From Gemmatimonadetes bacterium 13_1_40CM_69_22 (lineage in GTDB: Bacteria; Gemmatimonadota; Gemmatimonadetes; Gemmatimonadales; GWC2-71-9), in contig MNEL01000047.1 of assembly GCA_001917665.1 (NCBI GenBank), positions 1-64,000 of the forward strand: 64,000 bases of DNA, read 5' to 3'. How positions within the stretch are numbered: position 1 is the first letter of the stretch; each line of letters begins with the position of its first letter. Below the pieces are notes generated by a model. It had not been told where the DNA came from, did not search any database, and was given only the letters and a program-made list of their open reading frames with translations. The position numbers were made by a program, and so were the translations under genes. Shown here piece by piece: positions 5,165-24,685 of this stretch.

Positions 5165-6292
5165 AGGCGCGGCATACTAGTGGCGGGGTTTTGGGCTGTC
5201 AACGCGACGGCCTGCGTGGCGCCGTACGTGCCGCCCGCGAACCTCGGCCCGCCGCGCCAGGAGACGAGCTGGCCCGCGTACCTGGGCACCCCGCGTCACG
5301 ACGTCTGCGTCGCCGAGTCGCTCAACGCCGACCCGCGGCCGCTGTGGCACACCGGCGTCGGCCGGGCGGTCCGCGGCAGTCCCGCCCTGGGCGAGAGCGT
5401 GATCGTGGTCGGCGTCGCCGACCGGGTCGTGGCGCTGGTCGACCGCGCCACCGGCCAGGCCCTGTGGCGCGCCCGCGTCGGCGGCACCATTCACGGCGGT
5501 CCGCTGCTCGACGGAGACCGCATCTACGTCGCGACCGAAGCGACGCCCGACGCGCGCGTCTACGCTCTCCGGCTGCGCGACGGGCAGACGGTGTGGAGCA
5601 CCAGGACCGAGGGCATCGTGGCGCCGCTCGCCCTGGACGGCGACACGCTGTACGCGGCGACCGAGACCGGCACCGTGCTGCGACTCGAGACCGAAGCAGG
5701 GAAGGTCATCTGGCGCCGGCGGCTGGGCGGCGGGGCCCGCGCGGCCCCCATCCCCTCGGCGGAGGGCGTCATCGTCGCCACGACCGCCGACACTGTGTAC
5801 CTGCTGGAGCGCGCCACGGGCCAGGTGCGCGGGCGGCTCCCCACGCCCGGCGCGGTGATCGCGGCGCCGGCGCTCGACGGCACGCGGCTCTACGCCGCTA
5901 CGACCGCCGGCCGGATGCTGGCGATCGAGCTGCCGGCGCTGAGCGTGGCCTGGGACCTGCCGGCCGGGGACGCGGTGTTCGGCGCTCCCGTCGTGGCGCA
6001 CGATACGGTGTACGTGCTGGCGCGCAACGGTACGCTGTGGCTCGTCCCAAAGGACCGCCCGTCCGAGGCGCGCAGCTACGCGCTGGGCATCACGGCGACG
6101 GCGGGACCGATGCCGGTCGCGTCCGGCGTGCTGGTCGCGAGCGTGAGCGGCGAGGTGCTGCTCGTCGACCGGCGATCCGGCGCCATCCTGTGGCGCATCG
6201 AGCTCGACGGGCCCATCGAGCAGCCGCCGCTGGTGCGGGACCGGCAACTGGTGATCGTCGCCGGCCGCGGCGACATTCAGGCATACCGATGA
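5150..6292 (+). CDS. PQQ-repeat beta-propeller lipoprotein (BamB/WD40-like)
   Basis: Predicted 380-residue secreted lipoprotein. The N terminus MSVRHRRGILVAGFWAVNATAC has a basic n-region, a hydrophobic core and a plausible lipobox ending ATAC. The rest is a run of PQQ-type propeller blades with the signature GxxLWRxxxGG / DGDRIYVAT repeated about seven times, for example GQALWRARVGG and GKVIWRRRLGG. It resembles BamB-type scaffolds by repeat pattern, but no other BAM gene is nearby, so the role is unknown. The chosen ATG (5150-5152) overlaps the asnS start by 15 bases on the opposite strand. The next gene starts in its stop codon (ATGA). Confidence 0.8.
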   Translation: MSVRHRRGILVAGFWAVNATACVAPYVPPANLGPPRQETSWPAYLGTPRHDVCVAESLNADPRPLWHTGVGRAVRGSPALGESVIVVGVADRVVALVDRATGQALWRARVGGTIHGGPLLDGDRIYVATEATPDARVYALRLRDGQTVWSTRTEGIVAPLALDGDTLYAATETGTVLRLETEAGKVIWRRRLGGGARAAPIPSAEGVIVATTADTVYLLERATGQVRGRLPTPGAVIAAPALDGTRLYAATTAGRMLAIELPALSVAWDLPAGDAVFGAPVVAHDTVYVLARNGTLWLVPKDRPSEARSYALGITATAGPMPVASGVLVASVSGEVLLVDRRSGAILWRIELDGPIEQPPLVRDRQLVIVAGRGDIQAYR

Positions 6293-6816
6293 GACGAACG
6301 GCTTGCCTGCTGAGCGGCTTTGCGCTGCTGACGGCGATGTGCATGTCGGCACAGGCGCGCGACAGTCTTCCACGTCCCACGTTTCACGTTGCCAGTCGCT
6401 CGCGGGGAACGGGGAACGTGGGACGTGCAACGGTTCACTGGGGCAAATGGCTCGCCGCCGGCAGCGCCGTCGCGTTCTCGGTGATGGGCGCGCACGAGCA
6501 CAGCCGCTCGAACGGGGAGTTCAGCCAGCTGCTCACCCTGTGTCGCGCCAACAACGACGACTGCCTGCTCGGTACCGACGGTACCTACCTGAACCCCGCC
6601 GCGGAGCAGCTGTACCAGACCTCTATCCACTTCGACCGCCGCGCCCGGCTGCGCCTGCTCGCCGGTCAGGCGACGCTGCTCGTCGCCGCGGGCCTGTTCA
6701 TCGCCGACCTGACGCATCAAGCGAGCGGGCCGGAGAACAAGCCGTTCGCGCCGCTGAAGGTGGGGCTGGACAGGCGAACTGGCGGGGCGCTGGTAGGTGT
6801 CCGGCTGACGTTCTAA
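6289..6816 (+). CDS. Small secreted protein of unknown function
   Basis: 175 residues, not recognised. It begins with a signal peptide (MRRTACLLSGFALLTAMCMSAQA), then a variable stretch encoded by an inverted repeat (see 6371-6427), a short hydrophobic helix (WLAAGSAVAFSVMGA), a cysteine pair (CRANNDDC) and a second hydrophobic helix (LLAGQATLLVAAGLFIADL). The last residues (KVGLDRRTGGALVGVRLTF) end in an aromatic, like outer-membrane or periplasmic beta strands. It is translationally coupled to the upstream PQQ lipoprotein, so the two probably act together at the envelope. Confidence 0.7.
   Translation: MRRTACLLSGFALLTAMCMSAQARDSLPRPTFHVASRSRGTGNVGRATVHWGKWLAAGSAVAFSVMGAHEHSRSNGEFSQLLTLCRANNDDCLLGTDGTYLNPAAEQLYQTSIHFDRRARLRLLAGQATLLVAAGLFIADLTHQASGPENKPFAPLKVGLDRRTGGALVGVRLTF
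6371..6427. repeat. 13-bp perfect inverted repeat inside a coding region
   Basis: CACGTCCCACGTT (6371-6383) and AACGTGGGACGTG (6415-6427) are exact complements 31 bases apart. They lie just after the signal-peptide codons of the 175-residue protein and keep its frame. The arms are built from repeated ACGT/CCCACGT words, like the simple-sequence arms of the intergenic repeats in this window. Confidence 0.8.
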
Positions 6817-6917
6817 TGCGGAATGCGGAGTGTCGAATGCGGAATGTAAGTGTAGGCGTCGTGCCGCACGATACTCACCCTTACACTCCGCATTCCGCAT
6901 TCCGCACTCCGCACTCG
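6817..6917. repeat. Inverted repeat with GCGGAAT heptamer arms, between convergent genes
   Basis: The left arm (6818-6857) carries GCGGAAT, GCGGAGT, CGAAT and GCGGAAT units and ends in GTAAGTGTAGG. The right arm (6878-6917) carries CCTTACACTCC followed by ATTCCGC, ATTCCGC, ACTCCGC and ACTCGC. The arms can pair imperfectly into a long hairpin with a small CGTGC/GCACG stem in the loop. It fills the gap between the stop codons of the 175-residue gene and recG, where it could act as a two-way terminator. Confidence 0.85.
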
Positions 6918-6919
6918 CT

Positions 6920-8983
6920 TCACCCCACCCTGAACAGCTCAAACCCCCGCTCGTACCTCGTCACGATCCGCTCGCGATAGGCCGCATGCTCCGGCCGGGC
7001 GAGCGCCGGATCGCGCGCAATGACTTCTCCCGCCGCGCGGCGCGCCGCCTCGAGCAGCGGCAAGTCGGTCTCGAAGTTGGCGTAGCGCAACGGCACCCCA
7101 CCCGACTGACGGGCCCCGGCAAGCTCGCCCATGCCGCGCTCCCGTAAGTCGAGCTCGGCGATCTTGAAGCCGTCCGTCGTCTCGGTGAACGCCTTGAGCC
7201 GGGCGGCCGCCTGCGGGACGTTCGAGAGCAGGATACAGTGGCTCGCGGCGGCGCCCCGGCCCACGCGGCCGCGCAGCTGGTGCAGCTGCGCGAGCCCGAA
7301 GCGCTCCGCGTGCTCGATCAGCATCACCGTCGCGTTCGCCACGTCGATCCCCACCTCAATCACGCTGGTCGCGACGAGGATCTGGACCGCGTTGTCACGG
7401 AACGCGCGCATCGTCGCGTCCCGCTCGTCGGGACTCAACCGCCCGTGCACGAGCCCGACGCGGAACTCGGCGAACACCTGCCGCAGGTCTTCGGCCATCG
7501 TCGTCGCCGCTTTCAGGTCGGCGCGCTCCGACTCGTCGATCACGGGATAGATGACGTACGCCTGACGCCCCGCGGCGCACTCGGCGCGGATGAACTCGTA
7601 GATCTTCTTGCGCGCGGCGTCGGTGCGCAGCGCGGTCTTCACGGCGCCCCGCCCTGGTGGCCGCTCCCGCAGCTCCGTCACGTCGAGGTCGCCGTACAGC
7701 GTCAGCGCGAGCGAGCGCGGGATCGGGGTCGCCGTGAGGAGCAAGACGTCGGGGGCGTCCCCCTTCTCCACGAGGGCAGCGCGCTGCTCCACGCCGAAGC
7801 GGTGCTGCTCGTCCACCACGGCGAGGCCCAGGCGGTGAAATTTGACCGACTCCTGGATCAACGCGTGCGTCCCCACCACGAGGCGCGCCGCCCCACGCGC
7901 GATGCGCTCCCGCGCGGCGCTCTTCTCCGCCGGCGCCAGCCGGCCGATCAGGAGCTCCGGCCGGAGCTCGAGCGGCTGGAGCAGCCGCGTGAGCGTCGCC
8001 CCGTGCTGCTCGGCGAGCAGCTCGGTGGGCGCCATGATCGCGGCCTGGTAGTCGTTCTCCACGGCGAGCAGCATCGCGAACAGCGCCACCACCGTCTTGC
8101 CGGTGCCGACGTCGCCCATCAGCATCCGATGCATGCGGAGCGGCGCGGTCATGTCGTTCGCGATCTCGCGCACCGCGCGCCGCTGGTCCTCGGTGAGCTC
8201 GAAAGGGAGATGCTCCTTGAGCCGCGTGGTGAGCTCCTTCTTGAGCGCGAACGCGATCCCCGCGCGGGCGCGCTTCGCGAGATGGCGCGCGCGCGCCTGC
8301 ACGAGCTGCTGGTCGAAGAACTCGTCGAACGCGAGGCGGCGCCGGCCGGCCTCGGCGTCGTCCAGGTCCCGAGGCCGGTGCACGGCGGCGAGCGCCGGGC
8401 GCAGCTCGGGAGTCCCCACGGCGGCGCGCAGCCGCGGTGGATGGGGATCGCTGACGAGCGCAAGCAGGGCGTCCAAGTGCTGGTGGATGAGCCCGCGGAT
8501 CTGGCGGTGCGTCAGGCCTTCGGTCGCCGGATACACCGGAAGCACCAGGCCGCGGTCGGGACCCGCCTCCCCCTGGTCCGCCAGTACGACGAACTCCCGG
8601 GGGACGAGCTGGCGCCCGTGGTAGTAGCGCACCGGGCCGGTGACGAGGAGCAGCTGCCCCTGCTTGATTTGACGCTCGAGGAAGGGCTGGCCCGGCCAGG
8701 CGCACTCGAGCAGGCCGCTCTCGTCCCGGAGCACCGCCCGGAACACGCGCAGCCCGCGCCGCGTCGGCAGCACCCCAGTCGTGACCACCTGTCCGACGCA
8801 GTTGACCTCCTGCCCCACGCGCGCGCGCGCCAGCGGCGTGACCGCGGTCGCATCGAGGTAGCGATGCGGCGTGTGATACAGGAGGTCACCAACGGTGCGG
8901 ATGCCGAGCCGCGCCAGCGCCTCGGCGCGCTTCGGTCCGACGCCTTTGAGATATTTCACGGAGGTCACGAGCTGCAGCGTCAC
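6920..8983 (-). CDS. recG: ATP-dependent DNA helicase RecG
   Basis: Branch-migrates replication forks and recombination intermediates. The 687-residue product has the N-terminal HhH/wedge OB domain (LKGVGPKRAEAL, then VNCVGQVVTTGV), Walker A MGDVGTGKTVVAL, the RecG-type motif II DEQHRFGVEQR, motif III TATPIPRSL, and motif VI QLRGRVGRG followed by the TRG region. The length is normal. The start is GTG at 8981-8983. It is the last gene of the minus-strand train behind ftsY, 31 bases downstream. Confidence 0.95.
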   Translation of the reverse strand: MTLQLVTSVKYLKGVGPKRAEALARLGIRTVGDLLYHTPHRYLDATAVTPLARARVGQEVNCVGQVVTTGVLPTRRGLRVFRAVLRDESGLLECAWPGQPFLERQIKQGQLLLVTGPVRYYHGRQLVPREFVVLADQGEAGPDRGLVLPVYPATEGLTHRQIRGLIHQHLDALLALVSDPHPPRLRAAVGTPELRPALAAVHRPRDLDDAEAGRRRLAFDEFFDQQLVQARARHLAKRARAGIAFALKKELTTRLKEHLPFELTEDQRRAVREIANDMTAPLRMHRMLMGDVGTGKTVVALFAMLLAVENDYQAAIMAPTELLAEQHGATLTRLLQPLELRPELLIGRLAPAEKSAARERIARGAARLVVGTHALIQESVKFHRLGLAVVDEQHRFGVEQRAALVEKGDAPDVLLLTATPIPRSLALTLYGDLDVTELRERPPGRGAVKTALRTDAARKKIYEFIRAECAAGRQAYVIYPVIDESERADLKAATTMAEDLRQVFAEFRVGLVHGRLSPDERDATMRAFRDNAVQILVATSVIEVGIDVANATVMLIEHAERFGLAQLHQLRGRVGRGAAASHCILLSNVPQAAARLKAFTETTDGFKIAELDLRERGMGELAGARQSGGVPLRYANFETDLPLLEAARRAAGEVIARDPALARPEHAAYRERIVTRYERGFELFRVG

Positions 8984-18315: not shown

Positions 18316-19407
18316 TTAGGGGACCAGTGTCAAAATCCTCGACACGATCTCGCGGGACGCATCCGGGTGCCCCCGGGCGCGGGCGCGGGCGGCGAGGGAG
18401 GCGAGCCGGGCGGGGTCGCCGAGCAGCTCGGTGATCAACTGGGCGAGGGAGTGCGCCGAGAGATCCCGCTCGGCGAGCTGAATGGCGGCGCCCGCGGCCG
18501 CGAGCGCACGGGCGTTGTGGGTCTGGTGATCCGCCGCCGCCGTCGGGAGCGGCACCAGGATGCTCGGTTTCCCCCACGCGCACAGCTCCGCCACGGTCAT
18601 TGCGCCGGCGCGCGCCACGACGAGATCGGCCGCGCGGTACGGCTCGGTCATCGGATCGAAGAAGCCGCGCACCACCACGCGCCCCGGCACGGCGTAGCGC
18701 ACGAGCGCAGCCGCGTGCGCGCCACCGGTGCCCCACAGCACGTTTGCGTCGCTCAGCAAGCGGCGCTCCAGTGCCGCGGCGACAGCGTAGTTGAGCGAGC
18801 GTGCCCCCTGGCTGCCGCCGAACACCAGCACGCTGGGGCGCCTTGGCTCGAGCCCGAGGCCGGCGAGGGCCGCGCTCCGATCGCCAGGTTCGGGAGGCCG
18901 AACCGGGTTGCCGAGCGTGAAGACCTCGGTGCGCTCGCCGGGCGAAAGCCGCTCGCGCGCCTCGGGGAACCCGAGATGCACCTGGCGGGCGGCGCGCGCC
19001 AGCCAGCGTGTGGTGAGCCCGGGGAATGCGTTTTCCTCCACCAGCGCGGTCGGGACGCGCGCGCGCTGCGCCCGCCACACGACCGGTCCCGCGACATAGC
19101 CGCCGGTGCCGATGACGATCACGGGCTGCTCCTGACGCAATAGCTGCCCCACCTCGCGCCACACGCGGGGCGCGAGGAACAGCCAGCGCGCATTGCGCCA
19201 CCACGCGCGCCGGTAGATCGGCTCGATTGGGAGGAGGTGGTGGCGGAACGGCTGGCGCGGCAGCAGCTCGGCCTCGATGCCGCGCTCGGCGCCGACCAGC
19301 ACCGGCTCGACGCCCGCGTCCGCCTCGCGCAGCGCCTGAGCCAGCGCGAGGGCGGGGATGAGATGGCCGCCGGTACCGCCGCCGGCGAGGAGAACCCTCA
19401 CCCCCAC
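18316..19407 (-). CDS. murG: UDP-GlcNAc transferase MurG
   Basis: Transfers GlcNAc to lipid I to give lipid II at the inner face of the membrane. It has the glycosyltransferase motif LLAGGGTGGHLIPAL, the acceptor-site IGTGGYVAG, FGGSQGARSLN, and the donor-site ARAGAMTVAEL. The frame is open for 49 more codons upstream, but those run through a repeat; GTG 19405-19407 (or 19399-19401) begins the family N terminus and gives 363 residues. The start codon is 9 bases from the arm of the inverted repeat at 19416-19532. Confidence 0.94.
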   Translation of the reverse strand: MGVRVLLAGGGTGGHLIPALALAQALREADAGVEPVLVGAERGIEAELLPRQPFRHHLLPIEPIYRRAWWRNARWLFLAPRVWREVGQLLRQEQPVIVIGTGGYVAGPVVWRAQRARVPTALVEENAFPGLTTRWLARAARQVHLGFPEARERLSPGERTEVFTLGNPVRPPEPGDRSAALAGLGLEPRRPSVLVFGGSQGARSLNYAVAAALERRLLSDANVLWGTGGAHAAALVRYAVPGRVVVRGFFDPMTEPYRAADLVVARAGAMTVAELCAWGKPSILVPLPTAAADHQTHNARALAAAGAAIQLAERDLSAHSLAQLITELLGDPARLASLAARARARGHPDASREIVSRILTLVP

Positions 19408-19415
19408 CCCGGCCC

Positions 19416-19532
19416 AACGCGGAACGCGGAACGCGGAACGCGGAACTGAAGGGAAAGGTCCGTTCTTCGACCCACGATACGCGGATCGACGCGCGCACGA
19501 CCTGTTCCGCGCTCCGCGTTCCGCGTTCCGCC
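19416..19532. repeat. Inverted repeat with GCGGAAC heptamer arms between ftsW and murG
   Basis: The left arm (19416-19446) is four tandem GCGGAAC units. The right arm (19504-19532) is GTTCCGC, GCTCCGC, GTTCCGC, GTTCCGC, so three units match exactly and one carries a single change. The 57-base loop has no gene. It sits within the 133-base ftsW-murG gap and its murG-proximal arm ends 9 bases before the murG start. Confidence 0.88.
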
Positions 19533-19540
19533 TTCGGCTC

Positions 19541-20707
19541 TCATCCCGCCGCACCGTTCGTGCGCCGCCGCCCCCGCCCCACGCTGATCAGCACCCCCGT
19601 CGCGACGAGCGCCACGAGCAGGCTCGAGCGTCCGTACGAGATGAACGGCAGCGTGATGCCCGTCGCCGGCAGCAGCGCCAGGCTCACGCCGATGTGCAGC
19701 GCGGCCGTCACCCCAATCAGCGCCGTGAGCCCGACCGCGAGCAGCTGCCCGAACAGATCGCCCGCAGACCGCGAGATCCGGAAGCCGAGCCACACGAACG
19801 TGCCGAACAGGACGAGGATGACCACTACCCCGAGGAACCCCCACTCCTCGCCGATCGTCGAGAAGATGAAATCGGAGTAGGCGTACGGGAGGTAGCCCAG
19901 CTTCTGTTGCCCCTGCCCCAACCCCACGCCGAACAGCCGCCCCGCGCCGATTCCCACGAGCGATTGGTGCACCTGCCAGGTCGCTTCGGCGGGCGCGCTG
20001 CCCGGAGCCAGGAAGGTGAGCACCCGGGCGATCCGGTACTGCGCGCTCGCCACCGCACCGAAGGCGAGCGGCGTGCCCACGACGCCGAGTACGAGGAAGT
20101 GTCCGATCCGGGCTCCCGCCGTGAAGAGCACGACGCCGGCGAGGATCGCGACGAGCAACGCCATGGACAGGTTCGGCTCGAGGAAGATCAACCCGACCAC
20201 GGGCGCGAGGATCACGAGGAACGGCAACAGGCCACGTTGGAAGGTGCGGATCCGCTCGCCCTTCTTCGCCGCGAGCATCGCCGTCCAGACCACGACCGCG
20301 AACTTGGCGAGCTCGGACGGCTGCAGGGTGACGATGCCCAGATTCACCCAGCGCCGCCCGCCGTTGATCGTGGGCGCGATGCCGTGGGTGAACGGCAGCA
20401 GCACGACCACGAGCAGCAACGCCGCGACCCCGAGCATCGGCCAGGCGTAGCGCTGCCACCGCCGATAGTTCGAGCGCGCGAGCAGCGTCGCGATAATGCC
20501 GCCGACCAGGGCGCCGAGCGCCTGGCGCAGCGCGAACTCCGAGCCCACCTGCCCGCCGGCCGTCGTCAAAAGGCTGGACGCGCCGTACACCGCGGTGAGC
20601 CCGAACACCACCAACACGGCGGCCAGGAGCGCCAGCAGCCGGGTTTCCCAGCGGCGGTCGGTCATATAAGGCGCCGGCTGTGCCCGATCGGTGTAGGGGT
20701 GCAGCAT
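19541..20707 (-). CDS. ftsW: SEDS-family peptidoglycan glycosyltransferase FtsW
   Basis: Polymerises lipid II at the septum with FtsI. The 388-residue polytopic membrane protein has the SEDS motifs TINGGRRWVNLG, LQPSELAKFA, the catalytic-aspartate loop SDFIFSTIGEEWGF, and LPFISYGRSSLL. The last normally reads FxSYGGSS; here the second glycine is arginine. ATG 20705-20707 has a weak AAGG upstream; an in-frame ATG at 20663-20665 is an alternative. It lies between murD and murG, the usual place. Confidence 0.94.
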   Translation of the reverse strand: MLHPYTDRAQPAPYMTDRRWETRLLALLAAVLVVFGLTAVYGASSLLTTAGGQVGSEFALRQALGALVGGIIATLLARSNYRRWQRYAWPMLGVAALLLVVVLLPFTHGIAPTINGGRRWVNLGIVTLQPSELAKFAVVVWTAMLAAKKGERIRTFQRGLLPFLVILAPVVGLIFLEPNLSMALLVAILAGVVLFTAGARIGHFLVLGVVGTPLAFGAVASAQYRIARVLTFLAPGSAPAEATWQVHQSLVGIGAGRLFGVGLGQGQQKLGYLPYAYSDFIFSTIGEEWGFLGVVVILVLFGTFVWLGFRISRSAGDLFGQLLAVGLTALIGVTAALHIGVSLALLPATGITLPFISYGRSSLLVALVATGVLISVGRGRRRTNGAAG

Positions 20708-24567: not shown

Positions 24568-24577
24568 CGCCCCACCC

Positions 24578-24681
24578 GGAATGCGGAATGCGGAATGTGG
24601 CGTGTGGAATTGACGTGAAAGGTCGCTCGCCGAGCGACCCTCACCCTGACATTCCGCATTCCGCATTCCGCATTCCGCATT
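24578..24681. repeat. Inverted repeat with GCGGAAT heptamer arms between murE and murF
   Basis: The left arm (24578-24611) holds GCGGAAT units followed by the variants GTGGCGT and GTGGAAT. The right arm (24649-24680) is four ATTCCGC units. The loop contains its own perfect 9-base stem GGTCGCTCG / CGAGCGACC around 24620-24639. It fills the murE-murF gap; the left arm ends 11 bases before the murF GTG. Confidence 0.88.
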
Positions 24682-24685
24682 TCTT

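Follow-up and report, generated by a model that had tools for sequence, protein, structure and literature searches.

Intervening sequences (IVSs) of 23S rRNA exist also in short forms that lack an open reading frame (ORF). The IVS of Coxiella, according to the excerpts of PMC4990558 drawn on here, carries the ORF of the protein S23p, preceded by tandem heptamers, is closed by a terminal stem of 28 bp and is excised by RNase III; the same excerpts place IVSs at conserved sites in rRNA helices, give their role and mobility as unknown and their origin as an open question for more than 25 years, and describe the IVP/S23 family as abundant and structurally known, with no known function. Excerpts of a further source liken PF05635 to Avd, an accessory protein of diversity-generating retroelements (PMC10053308). 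In open-licence full texts we found neither a family of GCGGAAY heptamers nor inverted tandem arms at IVP genes described. Here we describe such a heptamer hairpin, E2, from the window (the whole stretch of 64,000 nt that was analysed), and we propose, with a probability of roughly 0.7, that it belongs, as a non-autonomous copy, to a family of mobile hairpins whose full-length members encode IVP.

Table 1 The ftsW-murG hairpin element, its flanking genes and the other two elements of the window.
Feature	Coordinates	Strand	Remarks
E1	6817–6919	.	GCGGAAT/GCGGAGT arms; occupies the space between the stop codons of two convergent genes
murG	18316–19401	-	scores above the TIGR01133 cut-off; orthologues place the start at GTG 19401
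E2, whole element	19412–19538	.	non-autonomous hairpin occupying the ftsW-murG gap
E2, left arm	19416–19446	+	(GCGGAAC)4, preceded by AAC
E2, loop	19447–19503	.	57 nt, one of two preferred family loop lengths (40, 57)
E2, right arm	19504–19538	-	GTTCCGC, GCTCCGC, GTTCCGC, GTTCCGC and a degenerate end
ftsW-like gene	19541–20707	-	stop codon 2 nt from E2
E3	24574–24685	.	GCGGAAT arms; insertion where murE meets murF

The initial annotation of E2, made from the sequence of the window, described four GCGGAAC units opposite four near-identical ones, and this is what we find: the left units run from 19419 to 19446 and the opposing four from 19504 to 19531, three of them exact and one with a single change (GCTCCGC). 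The inverted repeat extends further, to 35 nt on each side (19412–19446 and 19504–19538), with 91% complementarity around the loop, and the RNA fold of 19412–19538 reaches -93.1 kcal/mol (z -9.7 against 200 shuffles), the folds of E1, E2 and E3 together spanning z -8.3 to -9.9. That E2 is the "second" element of the window is right by position, the window containing three in all; recG and murE/murF do lie beside the other two, and the one-base difference between the units of E2 (GCGGAAC) and those of E1 at recG (GCGGAAT/GCGGAGT) and E3 at murF (GCGGAAT) stands. The arm had also been said to end 9 bases before the murG start codon, which is incorrect: orthologues give GTG at 19401, placing the outermost arm base, 19416, 14 nt upstream. 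As for the claim that no clear Shine-Dalgarno sequence is left there, by our reading the G-rich run GGGGTGGGG between arm and start may act as a weak Shine-Dalgarno-like stretch for murG. On the other side of E2, ftsW is the top-scoring model for 19541–20707, yet it scores below the curated cut-off (the Pfam family is FTSW_RODA_SPOVE). A scan of the E2 site gave no terminator or promoter signal, and an Rfam search of the window returned two tRNAs and nothing else. E1 is bounded by a TAA at 6814–6816 and by the recG TGA at 6922–6920. Elsewhere in the window, about 136 nt at 6144–6280 are present in the genomes G000, G003 and G004 and missing in G002, an apparent coding-region deletion.

E2 belongs to a large family. 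Allowing at most two mismatches, a 14-mer search gives 22 matches in the window against 4.2 expected, a number attained by 0 of 100 shuffles. In the window's genome (G000; 2.36 Mb, 71.5% complete), the 14-mer GCGGAAYGCGGAAY, a doubled heptamer, has 35 and 47 matches (82), against 0 and 0 for a control pattern read backwards; these heptamer matches form 46 clusters among the loci retrieved, and the genome holds about 40 such elements. Their arms mostly comprise exactly four units (~28 nt). Loop lengths peak at 40 and 57 nt in 34 measured G000 elements, and the same two peaks recur among 253 distinct two-armed elements when all loci are pooled. Inverted pairs less than 150 nt apart outnumber direct pairs by 97 to 3 in 1.84 Mb of loci, most of them selected for heptamers. 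The paired pattern occurs in 28 of 201 genomes (G000 and 200 relatives), and among the matches listed from named genomes it is found under the labels Gemmatimonadetes, Planctomycetes groups, Verrucomicrobia, Sulfuricella, Nitrospirae, Thermomicrobiales and others, in metagenome-assembled genomes (MAGs) as well as isolates. On this distribution we take G000 to be a probable gemmatimonad. We note that five IMG/VR contigs labelled viral (L212–L216) carry a paired GCGGARY pattern.

For 21 elements of G000 we searched the joined flanks in four congeners (G001–G004), and at sites chosen by eye for alignment, 12 of 12 were empty in at least one congener. As we read these alignments, the elements sit at gene borders, directly past a stop or ahead of a start. 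The E3 site is empty in G002, G003 and G004, and in G002 and G004 the murE stop there overlaps the murF start as GTGA; in G000, E3 is flanked by an imperfect duplication of 12–14 bp (TCACCGCCCCAC / TCACGTCGCCCCCA), that is, by two imperfect copies of the GTGA stretch, so that the murE stop and the murF start both survive. Target duplication is clear at E3 only and short at L057 (CTCAT), divergence obscuring the other aligned sites. Judged by the empty congener sites, the location at gene borders and the imperfect duplication at E3, hairpins of the E1–E3 type are mobile elements. The gap that E2 occupies is filled in eight genomes around and including G000, and it is short and free of elements in most more distant genera; in G002 it is a run of N, which we excluded from the empty sites and which probably explains a gap value of -1068 at this locus (L282). 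Two distant relatives have other arrays in this gap, an inverted GTGAACG pair in one (L299, G013) and a one-armed CCGCCGAG array in the other (L303, G036), and since these arrays are unrelated the gap would have been colonised repeatedly. At another site, a one-armed GCGGAAC remnant in G004 (L430, G004:C50:49470-49785) corresponds to a full element in G000 and to an empty site in G001. E2 is not specific to murG, and attention to that gene alone is misleading, since the element is a mobile hairpin with dispersed copies.

The initial annotation held that each element keeps its two arms matched to each other, and when arms are classed as GCGGAAT/AGT, GCGGAAC or GCGGATT, the two arms share a class in every one of the 61 two-armed elements of G000–G004 (shuffled mean 28.1, maximum 40). 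Within G000 they do so in 37 of 37 (shuffled mean 29.9). Among 27 elements of equal length, an arm also pairs slightly better with its own partner than with the arm of another element (0.926 versus 0.900, shuffle maximum 0.919 in 1000). Arms of different elements often match equally well within G000, where 33 of the 37 elements are of the T type and 4 of the C type. Between species the units at orthologous sites vary, always in both arms. The ftsW-murG site has GCGGAAC units in G000 and G004 and GCGGAAT units in G014 and G028; most of its units in G003 are GCGGAGT, G034 mixes GCGGAGT with GCGGAAT, G030 has GCGGATT/GCGGAAT, and G022 mixes GTGGAAC with GCGGAAC. At the E1 site the units are of the GCGGAAT type in G000 and G003, GCGGAAC in G004 and GCGGATT in G002.

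Joint copying or correction of the arms, as the initial annotation suggested, is only partly supported, for at sites common to congeners most loops differ too. The arms of 20 further orthologous loci at 12 sites were read (one, L451, without a scorable left arm). In the comparison of loops, the loop from the same site ranked first in 2 of 18 cases, loops of one site being usually no more alike than those of different sites. Since loops at common sites are mostly unrelated, exchange of the entire element for one from another subfamily would explain most unit switches, and most of them do look like a change of site occupant. The same loop with altered arms was found only at L047 and L057, in comparison with G004; a weak case is the E1 loop core, which is common across species but near the family consensus. 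Between loop halves we found no element-specific pairing in register (0.444 versus 0.452 shuffled). Genome-wide rewriting of arms in place was considered and dropped, loops at common sites being mostly without homology.

A probable partner of the heptamer elements is the four-helix-bundle protein IVP/S23 (PF05635, 23S rRNA intervening-sequence protein), whose solved structural relative is 2rld. G000 has two IVP genes, both flanked by inverted short tandem repeats, with the octamer GACGGGTA at one and a 13-mer at the other. More widely, inverted arms surround the IVP gene at 91 of 96 loci, taken mostly from the top of E-value-sorted lists and in many cases from few related families, against 9 of 288 mismatched pairs of left and right flanks (102 loci were examined, the 96 away from contig edges were counted, and an inverted flanking pair was one scoring at least 12); five of the 96 have no arms, and with tighter gene limits the count is 80 of 96, again against 9 of 288. 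One tandem period is common to both arms in 81 of the 91 (7 nt in 49, 8 nt in 21, another length in 11), the arm unit itself differing from one IVP element to another. The 5′ arm has more G than C in 79 of the 91 and more C than G in 11, and it is purine-rich in 68. In a random control of 20 regions (397 kb), inverted array pairs appeared solely in the region that holds an IVP gene. Among named plasmid records, 7-nt inverted arms stand at 6 of 8 IVP genes (those of Gloeocapsa, Planktothrix, two Chlorohelix, Nostoc and Treponema), the IVP genes of Bernardetia and Pseudanabaena plasmids having no clear ones; phages gave one weak IVP match. In four plasmid records (L488, L489, L490, L492) IVP adjoins defence-like genes (DUF1156 / Swt1 HEPN, drmD / PglX, cas1).

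Elements with and without the IVP gene share arm units in three cases. The octamer family TAGACGGG of G000 comprises one IVP copy (contig 11, C11) and ten ORF-less pairs, counted by eye. An inverted pair of this family also lies just past the window on the same contig (G000:C54:78405-78483), and two of its elements, L396 (G000:C24:16362-16470) and L403 (G000:C58:81905-82020), have terminator-like hairpins with A- or T-runs in the loop. Arms were examined at 19 IVP loci from the four congeners (L459–L477), and two of these loci, L476 in G001 and L477 in G002, lie between GCGGATT arms upstream of an obgE-like gene, and the ORF-less elements of G001 and G002 also carry GCGGATT units. The proteins of L476 and L477 match TIGR02436, a four-helix-bundle model. 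The 5′ end of L476 resembles the loop ends of ORF-less G000 elements, scoring 4.24 against 0.99 for shuffled sequences (sd 0.85, maximum 4.06 in 500), and its 3′ end scores 3.68 against 1.26 (sd 0.80, maximum 3.96). By our reading, the stretch GTCAGGGAGAGATCGTG looks like a ribosome-binding site with the start of the IVP ORF, and ORF-less loops retain a similar stretch. At the obgE-like site the IVP element has opposite orientations in G001 (L476, 1438–1864) and G002 (L477, 1419–1855), and the same site in G004 has an IVP match without clear arms (L472). On a contig from a Sulfuricella MAG (L150), GCGGAAT-type arms enclose an IVP gene (PF05635, E 3e-15), and several ORF-less copies lie nearby. 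In G000, which is 71.5% complete, we found no IVP gene with GCGGAAC or GCGGAAT arms, its two IVP genes having other arms, and the same is true of the IVP genes in the genomes richest in GCGGAAY elements, where examined. Across genomes the number of IVP genes does not follow that of elements; IVP is present in 17 of 17 element-bearing genomes and in 67 of 85 others (102 genomes; hypergeometric P 0.027, a test that ignores kinship).

Several other explanations deserve weighing. If the element were a static site under selection, serving as a binding site for a nucleoid protein or as an mRNA hairpin that tunes ftsW-murG, one could understand why arms remain regular while loops diverge, why the ftsW-murG gap is filled in eight genomes around and including G000, and why the RNA fold is so stable; we nevertheless consider this unlikely, as sites are gained and lost between congeners, the gap is short and empty in most distant genera, and the site has neither terminator nor promoter signal. 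Template-switch correction is established for imperfect palindromes, and arm matching might arise in place, by quasipalindrome correction (template switching in the hairpin) together with slippage and without any mobility factor. Such a process would accord with the joint switching of both arms at orthologous sites and with the retained loops and differing arms of L047 and L057, but it cannot explain the clean empty sites or the target duplication at E3, nor the existence of subfamilies with a common loop length and common ends, nor the association with IVP, and we regard it as very unlikely.

Two alternatives concern the agent of movement. REPIN/RAYT systems have a conserved GTAG/GGAG-type tetranucleotide beside the stem. 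A REPIN/REP identity of the heptamer hairpin, with a Y1 (REP-associated tyrosine) transposase as its mover, is suggested by its size, intergenic dispersal, inverted doublet and hairpin, as REPINs are described in excerpts of PMC3116915, and by the three Y1_Tnp genes of G000. The heptamer array is, however, absent from all three of these loci (1.5 kb on each side), and one of them (L067, 1290–2190, G000:C58) lies amid many copies of a different palindrome, GACCCCGGGCGCAAGCCCGGGGT, with which it likely forms a REP/RAYT system separate from the heptamer elements; arms built of tandem heptamer arrays with changing units also argue against this reading, which we find quite unlikely. It is improbable, too, that IVP is cargo, the most frequent passenger of hairpins that belong to another system and capture small genes and terminators. 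The terminator-like loop hairpins of L396 and L403 would fit a capturing element, as would the report, in excerpts of PMC4990558, that the Coxiella IVP is seemingly not made; yet we met no coding cargo other than IVP, and arms around 91 of 96 IVP genes in many phyla are too regular for chance capture.

We therefore return to the reading of E2 as a non-autonomous copy of an IVP-encoding mobile hairpin. The simplest form of this reading is a single class of hairpin elements, with long copies that contain IVP and short copies that do not. The ORF-less elements would descend from IVP-encoding ones and be mobilised by them in trans, and the same-unit IVP copies (TAGACGGG in G000, GCGGATT in G001 and G002) would be their autonomous partners, although IVP is no known transposase. 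IVP, being Avd-like, may bind the arms once they have folded, be it in RNA or in single-stranded DNA, and would be required for movement. To our knowledge IVP has no known catalytic residues, and for this reason another enzyme may do the moving. Arms would stay matched since both arms of every new copy already match on arrival, template switching in the hairpin perhaps also repairing one arm from the other. In the ftsW-murG mRNA, RNase III might cut the 28-bp stem, as is known for the IVSs of 23S rRNA. A broader view, to which we would give somewhat less than even odds, is that these are widespread and hitherto unrecognised bacterial mobile hairpins in which IVP acts as specificity factor and not as transposase: each IVP lineage would recognise its own arm unit of 7–8 nt and, perhaps by way of a hairpin or RNA intermediate, carry both full-length copies and ORF-less ones to gene borders, where newcomers would replace occupants, and rRNA IVSs would be copies that landed in 23S helices. 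The link suggests a role for a widespread protein, makes both the function of IVP and the origin of IVSs testable through arms and ORF-less hairpins with the same unit, and would explain intergenic hairpins in cell-wall operons such as ftsW-murG and murE-murF.

Compared with known systems, the heptamer elements resemble MITEs in being apparently non-autonomous, in their inverted ends and in a probable, imperfect target duplication (at one site), and differ from them in that no transposase with matching ends was found and the arm unit varies between elements of the same class. The elements of Geobacter metallireducens, as given in excerpts of PMC2700814, likewise have four tandem heptamers (GGGACCG) in 49 copies, both intergenic and intragenic; they are, however, predicted to be regulatory RNA, and those excerpts mention neither inverted second arms nor IVP. 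Like REPINs, as excerpted in PMC3116915, the heptamer elements are small inverted doublets, non-autonomous and dispersed between the genes of a genome, that can form hairpins; unlike them, they showed no link to a Y1 tyrosine transposase, carry arms of four heptamers and are linked to IVP. With the 23S IVSs of the Coxiella, Leptospira and Salmonella type they share terminal inverted repeats with a long stem (35-nt arms in E2, against a stem of ~28 bp) and, in Coxiella, heptamers beside the ORF (excerpts of PMC4990558), as well as an S23/IVP ORF in long members, absent from E2 and present in L476, L477 and L150, which have related units. They differ in that E2 lies between the protein genes ftsW and murG and outside rRNA, that whole tandem arrays make up the arms on both sides, and that dozens of ORF-less copies occur per genome. 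The heptamer element would work like an IVS, though it lacks the 23S rRNA location of IVSs and showed no link to the transposase of REPINs, and E2 looks like a non-autonomous relative of the 23S-rRNA-type intervening sequence that resides between genes.
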